This document shows positions 7,514-43,202 of a stretch of 43,202 nt of DNA, piece after piece. The position numbers and the translations under genes were made by a program. The first letter of the stretch is position 1; the number at the start of each line of letters is the position of its first letter. Source of the stretch: Corallococcus carmarthensis (lineage in GTDB: Bacteria > Myxococcota > Myxococcia > Myxococcales > Myxococcaceae); the NCBI RefSeq assembly GCF_003611695.1, contig NZ_RAWE01000070.1, forward strand, positions 1-43,202, written 5' to 3'. Under the pieces are notes generated by a model. That model worked only from the letters and a program-made list of their open reading frames with translations, was not told the DNA's origin and did not search any database.

Positions 7514-8290
7514 TCAGCCGAACTTCCCGGTGACGTAATCCTCCGTGCGCTTCTCGTGGGGGTTGGTGAAGATCTGCTCCGTGGGGCCGCACTCCACCAA
7601 TTCCCCCATGTAGAAGAAAGCCGTCCGGTCGCTCACGCGCGCGGCCTGCTGCATGTTGTGGGTCACGATGGCGATGGTGTACGTGGCCTTGAGCTCGTGG
7701 ATGAGCTCTTCGATCTTCGCCGTCGCGATGGGGTCCAACGCGGACGCGGGCTCGTCCATCAGCAGCACCTCCGGCTCTATCGCGAGCGCCCGCGCGATGC
7801 ACAGACGCTGCTGCTGGCCGCCGGACAGACCCAGGGCGCTCTCCTCCAGCCGGTCCTTCACCTCGTCCCACAGCGCCGCGCCGCGCAGGGACTTCTCCAC
7901 CCGCGCGGCCAGCTTCGCCTTGTCCTTGAGGCCGCCCACGCGCAGGCCGTAGGCGACGTTCTCGAAGATGGACTTGGGGAAGGGGTTGGACTTCTGGAAC
8001 ACCATGCCCACGCGCCGGCGCAGGTCCACCACGTCCAGCGAGCGGTCGTGGATGCTGCGGCCGTCCAGGAACACGCTGCCGTCGTGGTGCGCGCCCGGGA
8101 TGAGGTCGTTCATCCGGTTGAGCGAGCGCAGGAACGTGGACTTGCCGCAGCCGGACGGGCCGATGAGCGCCGTCACCTTGTGCTCGGGGATGGCCAGGCT
8201 CACCTGCTTGATGGCCACCTTGCTGCCGTAGCGCAGGGTGAGCTCGCGGGCTTCCATCTTGTTGCGCGGCGTGGCGGAGGGGATGGGCAT
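7514..8290 (-). CDS. pstB: Phosphate ABC transporter ATP-binding protein PstB
   Basis: This 258-residue ABC ATPase powers phosphate import. Walker A is GPSGCGKST (44-52), the Q-loop Gln is at 99, the signature LSGGQ is at 155-159, Walker B is LLMDEP with Glu180, and the switch His is 211. The segment [11 protein letters not shown] after Walker A and [22 protein letters not shown] are typical of PstB rather than other ABC proteins. It follows pstA by 17 bases. A second possible start is Met12. Confidence 0.96.
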
Positions 8291-36127: not shown

Positions 36128-36553
36128 ATGGGCGCGCGCAGAACGGCACGGGAGCGGGCGCTACAGGCGCTCTACCAATTGGAGATGGCCCAGGGCGCCA
36201 CCTCGCGGGAGGCCCTGGACTCAGCGTGGGCCGCCTCCGCGGAGGACGGGAAGCCGGAGCCGGACGCGGTGAAGTTCGCCAAGGAGCTGGTGGAGGGCGT
36301 CGAGGCGAACCGCGAGGAGATTGACGGGCTCATCGAGCGCCACAGCCACAACTGGCGCCTGGACCGCATGTCCCGCATCGACCGGAACGTGCTCCGGCTG
36401 GGCATCTTCGAATTGAAGTACCGCCCGGACATCCCCCGCAAGGTGACCATCAACGAGGCCGTGGAACTGGGGAAGAACTTCGGCACCGAGGAGTCGAGCG
36501 CCTTCGTCAACGGCCTCTTGGACCGCGTCGCGGTGGCGCTCGGGAAGCCGTGA
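36128..36553 (+). CDS. nusB: Transcription antitermination factor NusB
   Basis: This 141-residue helical RNA-binding protein works with S10 at boxA of rRNA leaders. It starts GARRTARERALQALYQLE (Arg-rich N-terminus) and has IERHSHNWRLDRMSRIDRNVLRLGIFEL and INEAVELGKNFGTEESSAFVNGLLD, the core signatures. Its stop overlaps the next GTG start. Confidence 0.96.
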   Translation: MGARRTARERALQALYQLEMAQGATSREALDSAWAASAEDGKPEPDAVKFAKELVEGVEANREEIDGLIERHSHNWRLDRMSRIDRNVLRLGIFELKYRPDIPRKVTINEAVELGKNFGTEESSAFVNGLLDRVAVALGKP

Positions 36554-37041
36554 GCCAGACGCAGACCCTGGACGTGGGCCTGGAGGGCCTGGACGCGCTG
36601 ACGGGGGTGGACGCCCTCTGCCTCTTCGTGGCCGAGGACGACCGCCCCCTGCCGTCCTCCGCTGGCTACGTGGACTGGCGGCTGTGCGGCGCCCTGTCGC
36701 GCGTGCTCCAGGGCGGGTTCTTCACCGGCGTGAAGGACGACTGGCTCCTCTTGCCGTCGGACGGGAAGCTGCCCGTGCCGCGCATCTTCGTGGTGGGGCT
36801 GGGCTCCCGGAAGCGCCTGGACGCGGCCTCGTTGGGTGAGGCGCTGGCGGGCGCGGCCAAGGTGTTGAGCCGCGCGAAGGTGGAGGCGGTGGCCTTGGAG
36901 GTCCCCCAGGGGGCTTCCCTGAGTGATTCGGCCCGTGCGGAGGCGTACCAGCGGCAGTTCCTGCCCGCGTTCAAGGGGGGACGGGTGTCCCTCCTCGCGG
37001 ACAAGGGGCTTGTCGGGTCGCTGTCATCCCGGAAGGGCTGA
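36550..37041 (+). CDS. Stand-alone peptidase M17 N-terminal-domain protein
   Basis: This 163-residue protein resembles only the N-terminal domain of leucyl aminopeptidase (M17_N). It has a mixed alpha/beta macro-like fold, with GVDALCLFVAEDDRPLP, IFVVGLGSRKRLDAASLGEALAGAAKVLSRAKVEAVALEVP. The catalytic domain that would bind two zinc ions is missing, and the stop at 37041 is followed by unrelated genes. The GTG overlaps the nusB stop (GTGA), so it is translated with nusB. In full-length enzymes this domain binds nucleic acid or holds the hexamer, so a non-catalytic regulator is possible. Confidence 0.75.
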   Translation: MSQTQTLDVGLEGLDALTGVDALCLFVAEDDRPLPSSAGYVDWRLCGALSRVLQGGFFTGVKDDWLLLPSDGKLPVPRIFVVGLGSRKRLDAASLGEALAGAAKVLSRAKVEAVALEVPQGASLSDSARAEAYQRQFLPAFKGGRVSLLADKGLVGSLSSRKG

Positions 37042-37053
37042 CGCGCAGCGACC

Positions 37054-37069
37054 TGGCGGGGGTTCTGCT
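37054..37069 (+). promoter_or_regulatory. Sigma-54-like promoter before cheY
   Basis: TGGCGGG, 4 bases, CTGCT fits the -24/-12 pattern TGGCACG-N4-TTGCW with the strict 10-base gap between GG and GC. A start near 37081 would leave a 15-base leader that still holds the GAGG ribosome site of cheY at 37096. The match could be chance in such GC-rich DNA. Confidence 0.4.
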
Positions 37070-37095
37070 AGCATCCAGCCCTTGAGGCGCGCGCG

Positions 37096-37470
37096 ATGAA
37101 GTTCAAGGTGTTGATCGTCGAGGACTCCAAGGTGTCGCGCGAGCACATCGCCGCGACCGTGGAGGCCGTGGACGGCGTCGAGGCCGTCACCACCGCCAGT
37201 GGCTTCGAGGCGCTGAAGCTGCTGCCGCGCCAGCGGTTCGACCTGATCATCACCGACATCAACATGCCCGACATCAACGGGCTGGAACTCATCAACTTCG
37301 TCAAGAAGAACCCCAACTACCGGGACGTGCCGCTCATCATCGTCACCACCGAGGGGCGTGAGCAGGACCGCTCGCGGGGCATGGCGCTGGGCGCGGCCGG
37401 CTACCTGGTGAAGCCGTTCCAGCCGGAGGACCTGGAGGCGCTCCTGCGGCGCTTCCTGAAGCCGCTGTGA
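37096..37470 (+). CDS. cheY: CheY-like response regulator
   Basis: This 124-residue single receiver has acidic residues Glu9/Asp10, phospho-acceptor Asp54 in LIITDINMPDING, Thr84 in IVTTEG and Lys106 in YLVKPF. It has no DNA-binding or enzymatic part, so it would signal by protein contact. The stop overlaps the cheA GTG (GTGA). It is the first gene of the che cluster, preceded by a sigma-54-like promoter. Confidence 0.93.
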   Translation: MKFKVLIVEDSKVSREHIAATVEAVDGVEAVTTASGFEALKLLPRQRFDLIITDINMPDINGLELINFVKKNPNYRDVPLIIVTTEGREQDRSRGMALGAAGYLVKPFQPEDLEALLRRFLKPL

Positions 37471-39716
37471 CGCCCGGGGGCAAGGCGCTGGCGGAGTTCG
37501 TCGCCGAGGCCACGGAGATCCTCGATGCGCTGGGCCGTGACCTCCTGGCGCTGGACGAGGCGCGCGGCCAGGAGGCGGACCCCGAGCACATCAACGGCAT
37601 CTTCCGCGCGGCGCACTCGCTGAAGGGGCTGTCGGGCCTCTTCGGCCAGGAGCGCATCAGCCAGCTGGCGCACGCGGCGGAGGACCTGCTGGACCGGCTG
37701 CGGCTGGGCCGGCTGACGCTGGACGACCAGGTCCTGGACACGCTGGTGGACGCGCTGGACACGTTCCAGGCGCTGCTCGGCGAGGCCTCCCGGACCGAGG
37801 AGGGCGCGGACCTCTCCCAGCGCACGCGGGACATGGAGGACCGCATGGCGCGGCTGGGTTCGCCCCCGCCGGCCGTGGAAGAGGATCCGCTGGAGCGCCT
37901 GGAGCTGGACGCGACGGTGCGCGCCGTCTTCACCGAGTACGAGGAGCACCGGCTGCGCGAGAACGTGCGGCGCGGGGTGGCCCTGTGGCGGGTGCGCGCG
38001 GCGTTCGACCTCACGGATTTCGATCAGGGGCTGGCGGACCTGAACGCGCGCCTCAAGCCCCTGGGCGAGGTCATCAGCACGCTGCCCTCGTCGCGGCCCG
38101 GCGGCAGCACCGGCATCGCGTTCGACCTCATCTTCGGCGCGAAGGTGGCCGCCCATGCGCTGGAAGCGGCGCTCCGGGGCACGCCCGCGGAGCTCGCGCC
38201 GCTGGCCGTGCGTCCGCCGGTGGAGGGTTCGCCGGGGCCTGCGTTCGACATGCCCCCGCCGCCTTCCGGGCGTGAAGAGACCGACGCGGAGCTGCTGCTT
38301 GCGGCGGACACCGACGAGGAAGAGCCCGATGAGGGCTCCGCGCCGCCGGGGGGCTCCACCAGCCTCGCGACCGTGCCGGTGACCCCGGTGGGAAGTCCTC
38401 CGCGCATGCGGGCGGTGGCGCCTCCGTCCACCGTGGTGGGGCTCCAGGCCGCCGCGTCCGCGCCCATTCCCGCGGGCCGTCCCAAGGTGGAAGAGACGTC
38501 CCTGCGTTCGCTCACGCAGACGGTGCGCGTGGACATCGGCCGGTTGGACGGGCTGATCAACATGGTGGGCGAGCTGCTGCTCATCAAGGCCAACCTCCAG
38601 CGGCTGGCGGAGACGTCCCGGCAGGACGGCACCGTCGCGCTGTCCAAGCTCTTCGGCCAGGAGCTCTCGCGTGAGACGCGGCAGCTGGAGCGCAAGCTGG
38701 AGGCGCTCCAGGAGGGCCTGCTCGAAGCGCGCATGGTCCCCGTGGGCCAGGTCTTCGACAAGCTGGCGCGGCTGGTGCGGAAGATCGCCCGCGAGGCCGG
38801 CAAGGAGATCGACTTCGTCAGCTCCGGCGGCGAGGTGGAGCTGGACAAGCTCATCGTGGAAGAGCTCAGCGACCCGCTGATGCACCTCATCCGCAACGCC
38901 ATCGACCATGGCGCGGAGGGGCCGGAGGCACGGCTCTCCGCGGGCAAGCCCCGGCGCGCGGTGGTGCGGCTGCGCGCGGAACAGAAGGGCAACCACGTCG
39001 TCATCAGCGTGTCCGACGATGGCTCCGGCATCGACGAGGTGCGCGTGCGCGAGGTGGCGCTCTCGCGCGGGCTCGTCACCCCGTCGCAGGTGAGCGAGAT
39101 GACGCGGCGCGAGCTGCTCAACCTCATCTTCCTGCCGGGCTTCTCCACCCGCTCCAGCGTCAGCTCGCTCTCCGGACGGGGCGTGGGCCTGGACGTGGTG
39201 AAGAACAACCTGGGCAACCTCTCCGGCATCATCGACGTGTGGAGCGAGCGCGGGAAGGGCACGGCCTTCCACCTGACGCTGCCGGTGACGCTGGCCATCG
39301 TGCGCGCGCTGGTGGTGGGCGTCAGTGGCCGCACCTACGCGGTGCCGCTCAACAGCGTGCTCGAAATCCTCTCCGTGCAGCCGCGCGACATCCGCACCGT
39401 GGAGCGCCGCGAGGTGCTGGACCTGCGCGGCCAGACGCTGCCCTTCCTGCGGCTGGGGCGCCTGTTCCACCTGCCGGAGCGCGAGGTGAACCGCCACTTC
39501 GTCGTCGTGGTGGGCCTGGCGCAGCAGCGGCTGGGCATCGCGGTGGACGAGCTGTTCGGCCAGCAGGACATCGTCACCAAGCCCCTGGGCGGCCGGCTGA
39601 GCCGGGTGAAGGGCATCTCCGGCGCCACCGACCTGGGCAACCGCCGCACCGTGCTGGTGCTGGATGTCGCGGAACTCCTGGAAGAGGGCATCGCGCAGGA
39701 GCGGCGCCGCGCTTGA
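37467..39716 (+). CDS. cheA: Chemotaxis histidine kinase CheA
   Basis: This 749-residue kinase has an HPt domain (1-105; His50 in FRAAHSLKGLSGLFG) and a second alpha/beta domain (about 125-225). An acidic, Pro-rich linker (about 250-340), P3 dimerisation helices (about 345-410), an ATPase with LIRNAIDHGAE, SDDGSGIDE and GRGVGLDVV, and a CheW-like P5 domain (about 610-745) follow. The 125-225 region (EEHRLRENVRRG, FDLTDFDQGLADLNARLKPLGEVISTLP) is not a classical CheY-binding P2 but sits in its place. It should phosphorylate the adjacent CheY. The GTG start overlaps cheY. Confidence 0.95.
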   Translation: MTPGGKALAEFVAEATEILDALGRDLLALDEARGQEADPEHINGIFRAAHSLKGLSGLFGQERISQLAHAAEDLLDRLRLGRLTLDDQVLDTLVDALDTFQALLGEASRTEEGADLSQRTRDMEDRMARLGSPPPAVEEDPLERLELDATVRAVFTEYEEHRLRENVRRGVALWRVRAAFDLTDFDQGLADLNARLKPLGEVISTLPSSRPGGSTGIAFDLIFGAKVAAHALEAALRGTPAELAPLAVRPPVEGSPGPAFDMPPPPSGREETDAELLLAADTDEEEPDEGSAPPGGSTSLATVPVTPVGSPPRMRAVAPPSTVVGLQAAASAPIPAGRPKVEETSLRSLTQTVRVDIGRLDGLINMVGELLLIKANLQRLAETSRQDGTVALSKLFGQELSRETRQLERKLEALQEGLLEARMVPVGQVFDKLARLVRKIAREAGKEIDFVSSGGEVELDKLIVEELSDPLMHLIRNAIDHGAEGPEARLSAGKPRRAVVRLRAEQKGNHVVISVSDDGSGIDEVRVREVALSRGLVTPSQVSEMTRRELLNLIFLPGFSTRSSVSSLSGRGVGLDVVKNNLGNLSGIIDVWSERGKGTAFHLTLPVTLAIVRALVVGVSGRTYAVPLNSVLEILSVQPRDIRTVERREVLDLRGQTLPFLRLGRLFHLPEREVNRHFVVVVGLAQQRLGIAVDELFGQQDIVTKPLGGRLSRVKGISGATDLGNRRTVLVLDVAELLEEGIAQERRRA

Positions 39717-39750
39717 GGCGGTTGCGCCGGGGGCTGCTATCCTCCCGGCC

Positions 39751-40314
39751 GTGTCCCGTTTCGAAGCCCTGCTCGACGCGTTCTTCTACCGCCCGGACGA
39801 GGACGTCGGCGGCCTGCTGGACTTCGCCGCGGGCAGTGACGACCTGGCGCAGCCGCTCCTGGAGGAGGAGCCCGTCGAGTACCTGGCCTTCCGCCTGGAG
39901 GCGGAGTGCTACGCGGTGCCCATCCTCTCGGTGAGGGAGATCTGCAAGGTGCCGCTGCTCACGGAGATTCCGCGCGCGGAGCCGCAACTGCTGGGCGTGA
40001 TGAACCTGCGCGGCGAGCTGTTGCCCGTCTATGACGTGAAGCTGCGGCTGCGGCTGTCGGAGGTGCCGCCGCTGGTGGCGGGGCCGGACGCGGGCCTGCC
40101 GCCCCGGGCCGCGCGCATCCTCGTGCTCAAGACGGACGACGGGCCCGCGGGTGTGTGGGTGGACTCGGTGGCGGGCGTGGTGCGGCTCAAACCGTCCATG
40201 GTGGAGCTGTCGCCCGCGGGGCTGCGCGGGGACCGTGACTGCGTGGCGGGGCTGGGGCGCAAGGGCTCGCAGCTCTACATCCTGTTGGATCCAGAGCAGG
40301 CGCTCTCCCCATGA
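39751..40314 (+). CDS. cheW: CheW-like coupling protein (first)
   Basis: This 187-residue protein has an N-terminal extension of about 45 acidic residues (SRFEALLDAFFYRPDEDVG, then LAQPLLEEE). The CheW domain follows (VEYLAFRLEAECYAVPILSVREI, EPQLLGVMNLRGELLPVYDVKLRL, SRV-like end). The NLRG motif is well kept. It links receptors to CheA. The GTG at 39751 follows cheA by 34 bases. The stop overlaps the next start (ATGA). Confidence 0.92.
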   Translation: MSRFEALLDAFFYRPDEDVGGLLDFAAGSDDLAQPLLEEEPVEYLAFRLEAECYAVPILSVREICKVPLLTEIPRAEPQLLGVMNLRGELLPVYDVKLRLRLSEVPPLVAGPDAGLPPRAARILVLKTDDGPAGVWVDSVAGVVRLKPSMVELSPAGLRGDRDCVAGLGRKGSQLYILLDPEQALSP

Positions 40315-40838
40315 CGGACCCCGTGAACCTGCTGGCCCGCCGCCCGCGCGGCGACATGGCGCGAGAGACGTCAGCGGCCGACGCGGAGGTGCAGCTGTGC
40401 GCCTTCTTCGTGGGCAACGAGGAGTACGTGCTGGACATCATGCGCGTGGAGGAGATCCTGCCGCCCCAGCGCGTGATCCCCATCCCGCACGCGCCCGCCT
40501 TCGTGGAGGGCGTGCTGCACCTGCGCGGCGCGATGCTGCCCGTGGTGGACCTGCGACGGCGCCTGCTGGGGCAGCCCGCGCAGGAGACGCGGCGCACGCG
40601 GCTGCTCGTGTGCCGGCTGGGAACGCGCCGGGTGGTGGCGCGGGTTGATCGTGTGGCGGAGGTGCTGCGCGTGCGCCGCGGCGACATCAAGCCCGCGCCG
40701 GCGCTCATGTCCGGGGGCCGCACGCCGTTCGTGGTGGGCGTGTGCGGACCGCCGGAGCGGCTGCGGCTGCTGTTGGATTTGAAGGCGCTCCTGCGCGCGG
40801 AGCTGGAGCGCGACTCGCGCCCTCCGACTGCCGGCTGA
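40311..40838 (+). CDS. cheW: CheW-like coupling protein (second)
   Basis: This 175-residue CheW protein has AFFVGNEEYVLDIMRVEEILP, HAPAFVEGVLHLRGAMLPVVDLRRRL (LRG in place of NLRG) and a shortened second barrel ending LLLDLKALLRAELERD. It differs clearly from the first CheW, so the pair probably serves distinct contacts in one array or two receptor types. It starts in overlap with the first cheW. Confidence 0.92.
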   Translation: MTDPVNLLARRPRGDMARETSAADAEVQLCAFFVGNEEYVLDIMRVEEILPPQRVIPIPHAPAFVEGVLHLRGAMLPVVDLRRRLLGQPAQETRRTRLLVCRLGTRRVVARVDRVAEVLRVRRGDIKPAPALMSGGRTPFVVGVCGPPERLRLLLDLKALLRAELERDSRPPTAG

Positions 40839-40883
40839 GCGCGCCGTGTTCATCGGACGCACCGCGGGTTTAGGAGGGGTGCC

Positions 40884-41108
40884 ATGCGAGACCTGAGCGG
40901 GCATCGGAAGCCGCTGGGGTTCCTCTACGTGTTCGTGCACGTGCTGGTGCTGGTGGGCGCGGGTGGGTTGGGCTACGTCACCTGGATCGTGGCCCACCTC
41001 GCCACCTCCGGGAGCTCCAAGCCGTCCGCGCAGGACTGGAACAATGGCGTCTATTCCCTCTGGTTCTTCGGCCAGGAGGGGTGGGACGCGGAGCCCCGGG
41101 GGGCCTGA
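40884..41108 (+). CDS. Small single-pass membrane protein in the che cluster
   Basis: This 74-residue protein has one long hydrophobic stretch (LGFLYVFVHVLVLVGAGGLGYVTWIVAHLA) and a polar tail with several Trp residues (QDWNNGVYSLWFFGQEGWDAE). It is not recognised. The ATG follows a strong AGGAGGGG ribosome site 5-9 bases upstream, and it is flanked by cheW and the HEAT gene, so it is probably a real part of the module. A receptor-like membrane anchor is a guess. Confidence 0.7.
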   Translation: MRDLSGHRKPLGFLYVFVHVLVLVGAGGLGYVTWIVAHLATSGSSKPSAQDWNNGVYSLWFFGQEGWDAEPRGA

Positions 41109-41324
41109 GCGGACTCACGCGCCTTCGCCCGTGCTTCCTTCGCGGTCGCGAAGGGTGCGAAGGTGAACGTTCCCATCCGACGCCAGGCTGCCCTCCGGCG
41201 CGGGGAGTGCCGTGGGAATGAGCCTGGCGGGCCCTCGTTCGGGCCTCGTGGAGCGCGACTCCCCTCGCGGCTTCAAGCAGGATGCGGACTTCCCGAGGAA
41301 CGGAGCCCCGAAGGAGGACGGCGG
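41109..41324 (+). other. 216-base gap with stem-loop before the HEAT gene
   Basis: CCTTCGCG (41137-41144) pairs perfectly with CGCGAAGG (41147-41154), effectively a 7-bp stem with a 4-base loop, about 30 bases past the small membrane protein gene. There is no T-tract. The frame of the HEAT gene is open through about 160 bases of this gap (from a GTG at 41163), but the translation looks non-protein-like. No clear promoter is seen. Confidence 0.35.
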
Positions 41325-43202
41325 ATGAGCGACACGGTGCGGTCCCCCGCGGGGCAGGAGGAGGCGAGGTACCGGGCGTTGCAGGCGGTGGATCCGCGCG
41401 CGCCCGGGGCCTTGGAGACCTTCACCACCGGCCTGCATGACGAGAGCTGGCGCGTGCGCCACGCGGCGGCGGAGGGCTTGCGCCGCGTGCCGGACGCGAT
41501 GGGCGTCACCGCCCGGCTCATCTCCGTGCTGGGGGAGCGGGGCGAGACGGGCGCTCGCAACGCGGCGGCCGAGGCGCTGGCCGGCATGGGGCCCGTGGCG
41601 ATGCAGCCGCTGGTGCGCCTGCTGGAGCACGAGGATCCGGATCAGCGCAAGCTGGCCGCGGACATCCTGGGACAGCTGGGCCAACCGGACGTGGAGGCGG
41701 TGCTGCTGCGCGCGCTCTCCGACGACGACCTCAACGTGCGCGTGGCGGCCGCGGAGGCCCTGGGCCGGATGGGCGGGGATGCGGCGGCGCGAGCGCTGGA
41801 AGGCCTGCTGGACACCCCGACGTCCCTGTTGCGGCTGGCCGCGCTGGAGGGCCTCGCGTCGCTCAAGCGCGCTCCCCCATTGGAGCGGGTGATGACGCTG
41901 GTGGAGGACCCGGGGTTGCAGCGCAGCGCCCTGCGGCTCCTGGGCCTCTACGCTCCGGGCGTGTCCACGGAGCGCATCTGCCGCGCCCTGGCCTCGCCGG
42001 TGCGCTCGGTGCGCGAGGCGGCCCTCGTCGCGCTGGGGACGCAGGCCGCGGTGCTGGGCCCGTATGAGCGCGGCGAACTGGACGCGGTGGCGCGCTCGGT
42101 GCTTGGCGGCATCCCGGGGGTGACGGAGCACGTGGCGCAGGCGCTGGACGGCGAGGACGTCCAGGTGCGGGCCGGAGCGCTGGTGGCCGCCGGAGCCCTG
42201 GGCGAGGCGTCGCTGGCGGTGGCGGTGGCGGAGGTGGCGCGCGAGGACCGGCTGCTGCGCGAGGTGCTCTTCACGCTGGGCCAGCTGGGGCCTGACGGAC
42301 GGCGCCTCCTGCTCGGGAGCATGGGCACGCTGTCGCTGCCCGCGCGCACGGTGGCTGCCGAGGCGCTGGTGCTGCTGGTGGACGCGACGTCGGTGCCGGA
42401 GCTGTGCGCGCTGCTGGAGTGGGCGGAGGACGACCTGCGCGCGGTGGTGGTGCGGGCGCTGGGGCGCACGCGCTCGCTGGAGGCCGTGGCGCCGTTGGTG
42501 GAGCTGCTCGCGGACACCTCGCTGTCGGGCATGGCGGCGCGAGCGCTGGAGCAGCTGACCGTGGCCCACCCGTTGGCGGCGCTGACCGCGCTGGAGGCGG
42601 CGGTGGAGCAGCGCACGACGCCCGCGGCGGTGGCGGTGCTGGGCCGGCTGGGCGGTGCGCGGGTGCTGCCCGTGCTGCGAAGGATCGCGCGCGATGAGGA
42701 CGCTGCCTGGCGCGCGGCGGCGGTGGAGGCGGCGGGCCGCGCGGACGGAGAGGCGGGCCTGGAGCTGGCGCGCGGCGCGCTGGCGGACGAGTCCCCCAAG
42801 GTGCGCATCGCCGCGGTGCGCTCCCTGGGGCAGCAGGGCGGCAAGGAGGCCGCGACGTTCCTGGGGCTCGCGCTGAAGGACGAGGACCGGGGCGTGCGCG
42901 TGGCCGCGGTGGAGGCGGTGGGCCACGCGGGCGCGAAGGAGCGCTCGGCGGACCTGGAGTCGCTGGTGCGCCACGGTGACGGTGCGCTCGCGATGCTGGC
43001 GGTGCGCGCCCTGACGAAGCTGGGTGCGGTGGGCGCGGGCGTGCTGTGGGACGCGCTCAGCCATCCCGACGCGGAGGTCGTGAAGGCGGCGCTGGCGGCG
43101 CTGGCGTCGGCGGAGGCGTCCGCGGACGGTGTGTCGCTGGCGGTGTCGCTCCTGGGCCATCCGCGCTGGGACGTGCGTGCGGCGGCGGCGCGGGTGCTGG
43201 GG
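41325..43202 (+). CDS. HEAT-repeat protein (5' part, runs off the window end)
   Basis: The ATG at 41325 follows AGGAGG (41312-41317) and opens a frame of 626 codons that is still open at the last base. The product is built from repeated pairs of helices of about 31 residues, of the HEAT/PBS-lyase type: DESWRVRHAAAEGLRRV, DPDQRKLAADILGQLG, DDDLNVRVAAAEALGRMG, ESPKVRIAAVRSLGQQG, DRGVRVAAVEAVGHAG. Such scaffolds bind proteins. In Myxococcus xanthus, the HEAT protein Cpc7 is the partner of a Che-type CheY, a parallel for the position here next to a che cluster. Start is well supported; total length is unknown. Confidence 0.92.
   Translation, partial: MSDTVRSPAGQEEARYRALQAVDPRAPGALETFTTGLHDESWRVRHAAAEGLRRVPDAMGVTARLISVLGERGETGARNAAAEALAGMGPVAMQPLVRLLEHEDPDQRKLAADILGQLGQPDVEAVLLRALSDDDLNVRVAAAEALGRMGGDAAARALEGLLDTPTSLLRLAALEGLASLKRAPPLERVMTLVEDPGLQRSALRLLGLYAPGVSTERICRALASPVRSVREAALVALGTQAAVLGPYERGELDAVARSVLGGIPGVTEHVAQALDGEDVQVRAGALVAAGALGEASLAVAVAEVAREDRLLREVLFTLGQLGPDGRRLLLGSMGTLSLPARTVAAEALVLLVDATSVPELCALLEWAEDDLRAVVVRALGRTRSLEAVAPLVELLADTSLSGMAARALEQLTVAHPLAALTALEAAVEQRTTPAAVAVLGRLGGARVLPVLRRIARDEDAAWRAAAVEAAGRADGEAGLELARGALADESPKVRIAAVRSLGQQGGKEAATFLGLALKDEDRGVRVAAVEAVGHAGAKERSADLESLVRHGDGALAMLAVRALTKLGAVGAGVLWDALSHPDAEVVKAALAALASAEASADGVSLAVSLLGHPRWDVRAAAARVLG

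Follow-up and report, generated by a model that had tools for sequence, protein, structure and literature searches.

A Che8 chemosensory cluster of Corallococcus carmarthensis with a conserved HEAT-repeat gene and McpJ as its likely unlinked receptor

To which pathway does the chemosensory gene cluster at the end of a 43,202-nucleotide stretch of Corallococcus carmarthensis DNA belong, which receptor would feed it, and what might the HEAT-repeat protein encoded within it do? The window analysed here is that whole stretch, which makes up contig C498 of a 10.8-Mb assembly in 530 contigs. The initial annotation, made from the sequence alone, had described a cheY-cheA-cheW-cheW module followed by a small membrane protein and a very long HEAT-repeat scaffold, and had seen no CheR, CheB or methyl-accepting chemotaxis protein (MCP). 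Judged by gene content and order, the locus is the Corallococcus ortholog of Che8 of Myxococcus xanthus (MXAN_4751-4759), a previously named system that is described here in a further species. Our best explanation of the whole, to which we give a probability of about one half, is that Che8 is fed by the unlinked receptor McpJ and that the HEAT protein docks a partner, most likely phosphorylated CheY. The McpJ assignment and the linkage of the HEAT gene to cheR are new. The principal genes in the window are listed below.

37096..37470, + strand: cheY8b, 124 aa, a single receiver domain (Pfam Response_reg, 9.5e-28), equal in length to MXAN_4759
37467..39716, + strand: cheA8, 749 aa, with Pfam matches to Hpt, H-kinase_dim, HATPase_c and CheW and no receiver match
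39751..40314, + strand: cheW8b (Pfam CheW), likely starting at GTG in an open reading frame that is open from 39664
40311..40838, + strand: cheW8a, 175 aa (Pfam CheW)
41325..43202, + strand: first 626 codons of the HEAT-repeat gene (Pfam HEAT_2, 1.4e-52), the last 37 codons of which lie at L137:1-111, the start of contig C165

Strong Pfam scores, including E-values of 3.3e-29 and 6.7e-33 for the two cheW products, confirm the cheY, cheA, cheW and HEAT genes, and the CheY is a lone receiver, as first described, with no output domain. In an alignment of 18 sequences its residues D10, D54 and K106 are invariant and T85 is conserved in 90% or more, the residues for phosphorylation being retained. 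The overlap proposed along the whole module is not required between cheA and the first cheW, since the GTG at 39751 lies downstream of cheA; it gives a CheW8b of 187 aa, near the 188 aa of M. xanthus CheW8b.

The HEAT reading frame is interrupted by the end of the window, which is also the end of contig C498. A profile of 31 HEAT orthologs, run against the assembly, located the remaining C-terminus at the very start of contig C165. The join was judged by mapping both contigs on a relative with a one-contig genome (L034), where the last aligned base of the window falls at 8173 and C165 begins at 8175, so that the contigs abut within about one base. The scaffold called very long does consist of HEAT repeats, in a gene truncated by the contig end; its full-length counterpart in L034 has 663 aa. 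Beyond the HEAT gene, C165 carries cheR (290 aa), cheB (348 aa) and a second cheY (127 aa). The adaptation genes thought to be absent are therefore the next genes, and they had escaped notice because the contig ends inside the HEAT gene. Further downstream are an ABC ATPase recognised by Pfam and a permease-like gene, and beyond these two genes that, by eye, look like those for asparaginyl- and leucyl-tRNA synthetase. Reading past 43202 thus leads into adaptation genes, a cheY and an ABC transporter rather than into an ordinary motility operon, and the gene order across both contigs matches that read in L034.

As the initial annotation had stated, the module has no linked MCP gene, none being matched on C498 or C165, and no flagellar or other motility gene was recognised among the neighbours on these contigs, which were named by eye or by Pfam (rib genes, nusB, M17_N, the ABC transporter and the tRNA synthetases). 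Across the two contigs the che genes form a single run, cheY-cheA-cheW-cheW ... cheR-cheB(-cheY) without mcp, and the pathway is complete except for a linked receptor gene.

The order ribH-nusB-M17_N-cheY-cheA-cheW-cheW-HEAT-cheR-cheB-(cheY) recurs in named relatives. One of them, M. xanthus AM003 (L116), has a cheA of 862 codons, as long as the published CheA8 MXAN_4758. CheA is 84-95% identical to Corallococcus records. CheA8 orthologs occur in 28 of 39 genomes and score at least 390 bits, against at most 289 for other CheAs. Published work is cited here from parts of each source. In M. xanthus, Che8 is given with a CheY8b of 124 aa, a CheW8a of 174, a CheR8 of 290 and a CheB8 of 345, with no MCP listed in those tables (PMC3945109). 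The present cluster shares its gene set and order, the lengths of CheY8b and CheR8, a CheW8a of nearly the same size (174 versus 175 aa), the lack of an MCP and a lone CheY at each end; it differs in CheA8, which has 862 aa there and 749 aa here. The Che8 of C. coralloides is likewise listed without an associated MCP (PMC6194562). By gene order, MXAN_4754 and MXAN_4755 would be the HEAT and membrane-protein genes, which the tables of PMC3945109 do not name. The initial description of the system as little described was half right: the cluster had been named and cheA8 deleted in M. xanthus (PMC3945109), and all cheA mutants of that species are published as showing fruiting-body defects, yet the functions of Che8 were still called not yet identified in 2022 (PMC9040617). 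A plasmid search with CheA8 returned 450 records, all below 60% identity and none spanning 80% of the protein; two of them were inspected and had no HEAT gene annotated nearby.

Conservation of the HEAT gene was assessed over the 45 cheA8 loci, five duplicates having been dropped, in which the sequence extends 0.9 kb or more before cheA and 7.5 kb or more after it. These loci are contig stretches, and some rows of the wider set share one genome. The HEAT gene occupies the same slot in 44 of the 45, down to metagenome-assembled genomes (MAGs) whose CheA is 44-45% identical, so that the conservation with the cluster raised as a check by the initial annotation is borne out. All of cheY8b, HEAT, cheR and cheB are present in 41 loci. 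Two others lack cheY8b only (L040, L041), one lacks cheB (L129), and one, a MAG, lacks HEAT, cheR and cheB (L105). CheA8, HEAT, cheR and cheB stand together in 43 loci, and HEAT and cheR are present or absent jointly in all 45. A cruder earlier rule (4.5 kb after cheA) had given HEAT in 44 of 46 loci and HEAT adjacent to cheR in 43; of the two loci that it scored as lacking HEAT, L047 in fact carries the gene. At the level of genomes, HEAT matches at E<=1e-30 were found in 25 of 39, every one among the 28 with CheA8. The CheA8 genomes without a full match are G016, where the HEAT N-terminus lies at a contig end, G020, where the contig stops before the slot, and G021, which has no HEAT match at this threshold. 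The genome comparison suggests that the HEAT protein belongs to the core of Che8. The AlphaFold2 model of a full-length ortholog (L085) is an all-helical solenoid of 40 helices, with a mean predicted local distance difference test score of 92.5 and a predicted template modelling score of 0.71. Foldseek placed it near eukaryotic scaffold proteins in the Protein Data Bank, among them the PP2A A subunit, CAND1 and karyopherin-beta2. On this model the protein is predicted to be an alpha-solenoid, and no other domain was recognised in it.

Natural reduced forms of Che8 are seen in L105 and in L166, the locus of G021, which is too short for the strict count. Both keep cheY8b-cheA8-cheW8b, and HEAT, cheR and cheB were not found in either. 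In L166 the second cheY stands directly after cheW8a, with no match to the three genes in the roughly 2 kb between the slot and the end of the contig; G021 keeps an McpJ match. L040 and L041 are Che8 clusters without cheY8b before cheA, and L041 apparently has an extra gene between cheA and cheW that we take to resemble an ExeA-type ATPase.

The receptor was sought among the 22 MCP matches of the C. carmarthensis genome. One of these, on contig C515 (L063), has at least 688 aa, a HAMP domain at 191-237, one Pfam MCP stretch at 384-569 and two hydrophobic segments. McpJ of M. xanthus has 723 aa, a HAMP domain, two transmembrane segments and two listed MCP stretches, and PMC3945109 describes it and Mcp7 as recent duplicates. 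A second chemosensory cluster of the genome lies on the minus strand of contig C443, with the order cheY-cheA-cheW-mcp-HEAT-cheR. The 846-aa MCP encoded there shows neither a HAMP match nor any strongly hydrophobic window of 19 residues, which fits the published Mcp7 (821 aa, no transmembrane segment; PMC3945109), and we therefore read this cluster as Che7. Self-matches aside, the receptors of L063 and of the Che7 cluster are reciprocal best matches within the set of 22 MCPs, as McpJ and Mcp7 would be. These features and the kinship with Mcp7, rather than an alignment to MXAN_5907, are what make the L063 receptor fit McpJ.

CheA8, McpJ and CheA7 were then profiled over the same 39 genomes, with at most 27, 30 and 29 first-look candidates scored per genome, respectively. 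At E<=1e-60, 27 of the 28 genomes with CheA8 had exactly one McpJ match (the weakest being 2.9e-168), and the 11 without CheA8 had none; the only CheA8 genome lacking a match, G017, is 78% complete. CheA7 orthologs (at least 559 bits) occur in 18 of the 39 genomes. McpJ is found in 17 of these 18 and in 10 of the 21 genomes without CheA7, and contrasts within families (f3, f5 and f9) agree with its co-occurrence with CheA8. Unlinked McpJ is thus the likely receptor of Che8, and the co-occurrence is new here.

Two McpJ genes have features of their own. The match in G009 (G009:C1:8100682-8102742) contains one in-frame TAG. In G030 (L170 3757-6858) the gene immediately before McpJ resembles, by eye, one for an ABC substrate-binding protein, possibly a ligand carrier in the periplasm.

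In the pathway that we propose, McpJ would most likely feed CheW8a, CheW8b and CheA8, while CheR8 and CheB8, by homology, would set the methylation of the receptor. CheA8 would in turn phosphorylate the single-domain CheY8b and CheY8a, again by homology. In M. xanthus it probably also phosphorylates the orphan regulator MXAN_4468, which acts with HrcA on groESL; MXAN_4468 pulls down CheA8 and CheA7, and deletion of cheA8 resembles deletion of MXAN_4468 for groESL (PMC9040617). By analogy, the HEAT protein probably acts by protein contact, with CheY or with CheR. We place CheY first because an interaction has been reported in the sister system, between Cpc7 and CheY7 (PMC11514114), and the solenoid would accordingly most likely dock phosphorylated CheY.

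Che7 is a close point of comparison. It falls in the same phylogenetic group 1 as Che8 in PMC3945109 and differs in having its own MCP and one cheW. The HEAT gene stands directly before cheR in both clusters, with a gap of 13 bp in Che8 (L034) and 14 bp in the Che7-like cluster, and we infer that the gene in the Che7 slot is Cpc7. No special similarity links the two HEAT proteins: they share 29% identity in blastp segments (2e-8), and a HEAT8 profile search of the genome listed nine other HEAT frames without the Che7 HEAT at E<=1e-3. Given this low similarity, the parallel with Cpc7 drawn in the initial annotation is positional; it holds for the slot before cheR and not for a specific sequence relation. 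Contig C27 was also considered as a carrier of Che7 and was rejected as a different cluster. This cluster (L132, G000:C27, 2650-10507) has genes named by eye as cheA-cheW-MCP-ABC1-like-cheB and resembles the aerotaxis cluster of C. coralloides, which has been called unique to that species (PMC6194562). It may not be unique, since G005, G009 and G013 each have a cheA match whose frame is likewise 767 aa long.

Several observations weigh against the explanation that we favour. The HEAT gene is kept without cheY8b in L040 and L041, L166 has both cheY genes with no HEAT in the slot, and the close kinship expected between the HEAT proteins of Che8 and Che7 was not found. The HEAT protein might instead be an in-trans partner of CheR8 on the adaptation side, steering or limiting receptor methylation as a fused TPR does on other CheRs. 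CheR is a candidate because HEAT and cheR never separate in the 45 loci (both present in 44, both absent in one) whereas HEAT and cheY8b disagree in three, and because CheR7 and CheR8 of M. xanthus lack the TPR carried by FrzF, CheR3, CheR4 and CheR6 (Table 3 of PMC3945109). CheR8 and CheR7 of the present genome likewise have no TPR by Pfam (E<=0.01), and the TPR of FrzF restricts the sites that are methylated (PMC3447774). The direct succession of HEAT and cheR in both clusters, the joint loss of HEAT, cheR and cheB in L105 and the absence of HEAT from the slot in L166 point the same way. The reported partner of Cpc7 is nevertheless CheY7, and CheR5, too, is given without a TPR in Table 3, the HEAT comparison here having covered Che7 and Che8. 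Joint loss of adjoining genes can be one deletion; moreover, L166 is cut about 2 kb past the slot and L105 is a MAG. On this balance a role as CheR partner is possible, though unlikely. More speculative, and harder to credit, is a scheme in which a free-standing HEAT solenoid in Che7 and Che8 replaces the CheR-fused TPR and binds CheR, and perhaps phosphorylated CheY too, so that the output would feed back on McpJ methylation; no description of such a HEAT-based adaptation device was found in the literature searched. That the HEAT gene is a passenger in the cluster by chance could be argued from the 95 HEAT_2 matches in the genome and from HEAT8 identities that fall to 31-49% in more distant rows, but its retention in one slot down to distantly related MAGs makes this highly improbable.

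The choice of McpJ as the receptor also meets objections. The rows of the co-occurrence survey are not independent, 16 of the 39 genomes belonging to one genus, and no more than 27-30 first-look candidates were scored in each genome. Two of the 11 genomes without CheA8, G035 (the negative of family f9) and G036 (one of the two in f3), yielded no CheA match of any kind at E<=1e-30; the other nine do have some CheA match. The L063 receptor has one Pfam MCP stretch against two in the M. xanthus table. Deletion of mcpJ gave no defect in M. xanthus, and McpJ is linked by localisation to Mcp7 (PMC3945109). Che8 might accordingly listen to Mcp7, McpB or several shared receptors, with McpJ merely sharing its set of genomes. 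In the same source Mcp7, McpB and McpJ form one group with Che7 and Che8 together, and the pairings in the two-hybrid tests cited from it do not include McpJ with CheW8. Profiling of orphan MCPs covered McpJ, and G017 has CheA8 without an McpJ match, albeit in an incomplete genome. The presence of McpJ in about half of the genomes that lack CheA7, and in none that lack CheA8, speaks for a tie to Che8 itself, and we hold a shared or different receptor to be unlikely. McpJ feeding Che8, with the HEAT protein docking phosphorylated CheY, therefore remains our preferred explanation.

A further alternative concerns transcription. The initial annotation had proposed a sigma-54-like promoter that would tie the module to an enhancer-binding protein. 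Two overlapping elements lie upstream of cheY8b.

37055..37068, + strand: GG-N10-GC, a probably fortuitous sigma-54-like element overlapping the extended -10
37066..37074, + strand: extended -10 element of sigma-70 type, TGCTAGCAT, with a conserved TGnTAnnnT

The comparison covered 50 distinct upstream regions, from which L040 and L041 (no cheY8b) and five duplicates had been left out and loci without either flanking gene were not counted. Many of the regions come from close relatives, and the counts are raw. TGnTAnnnT occurs 10-29 bp before the start codon in 43 of the 50. The sigma-54-like element is present in the window with the correct spacing, yet GG-N10-GC(TA) is found at the same place in only 17 regions, in a GC-rich context; elsewhere the GC reads GT, GA or GG, and the -12 C varies. 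The upstream element of cheY8b is thus, on sequence, better read as an extended -10 promoter than as a sigma-54 one. Control of the cluster by sigma-54 and an enhancer-binding protein is scarcely credible, and the proposed tie is not upheld.

Chemosensory clusters with comparable features are known elsewhere. Clusters of the beta group, which lack an MCP, occur in deltaproteobacteria, with M. xanthus and Anaeromyxobacter among the carriers (PMC2577667), and share with the present locus cheA, cheW, cheB and cheR and the absence of mcp. An extracellular-matrix role of this group in Geobacter is a preliminary statement of the same paper. M. xanthus che8 is stated to be conserved in Anaeromyxobacter (A. 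dehalogenans) and G. sulfurreducens (PMC2330069), and the two sources together would make Che8 the beta-group cluster of M. xanthus. In haloarchaea, deletion of the HEAT_PBS protein OE2401F behaves like a cheY deletion, which offers an analogy for the CheY reading beside that of Cpc7, and the protein binds CheD and OE2402F (PMC2666748). It resembles the Che8 HEAT protein, by description rather than by sequence, in being encoded beside che genes, and differs in acting on the archaeal flagellum. Che8 is one of eight chemosensory systems of M. xanthus, and it now has a likely dedicated receptor and a HEAT protein that appears to belong to its core. If this is right, Che8 would be a second HEAT-coupled system beside Che7 and, with the haloarchaeal and TPR-CheR parallels, would point to solenoids as a recurrent connector in chemosensory pathways.

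Between cheW8a and the HEAT gene lies one further reading frame.

40884..41108, + strand: 74-aa remnant of a 129-131-aa membrane protein, with 165 bp deleted in frame relative to full-length copies

The 74-residue membrane protein of the initial annotation is a genuine reading frame, but a shortened form and not a conserved part of the core. Among 12 distinct Corallococcus-type loci, eight carry the 129-131-aa protein in this position, the window carries the 74-aa form, and no copy was found in three (L034, L043 and L044). A relative of 125-134 aa is present in eleven Myxococcus/Pyxidicoccus-type loci, and the M. xanthus AM003 protein is full length, in contrast to that of C. carmarthensis. 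No copy was found outside these three types of loci; those of Archangium, Hyalangium, Citreicoccus and more distant relatives, where read, leave a gap of no more than 124 bp. The ratio of nonsynonymous to synonymous substitution rates is 0.38-1.19 over 15 pairs of six 129-aa copies, with 13 of the 15 above 0.6, which implies weak constraint. Pfam and NCBIfam gave no clear family, the matches to DctQ (23.1 bits, in one relative) and DUF2127 (13.1 bits, in another) both being below cut-off. A core role for this protein was rejected because of its loss in relatives, its shortening here and its weak constraint. Taken as a whole, the initial annotation was right about the module and its HEAT protein and went astray on the promoter, the adaptation genes and the small protein.

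The cluster is flanked by two further conserved features. Just before cheY8b, and overlapping nusB, a gene at 36550-37041 encodes a stand-alone Peptidase_M17 N-terminal domain of 163 aa with no match to the catalytic half; it holds the same position in many relatives. On the other side, the second cheY is followed by the ABC ATPase and permease genes (L137 2528-5001) in most loci of Myxococcus, Pyxidicoccus and Corallococcus. The pair is unmatched in L117 and in Archangium L098 and L120, and it is also present in Citreicoccus L095 and Hyalangium L101. Finally, a record titled Comamonas sp. KCTC 72670 (L114) has a Myxococcus-type che8 locus, with a CheA identity of 77%, from which we conclude that this record is probably mislabelled or mixed.

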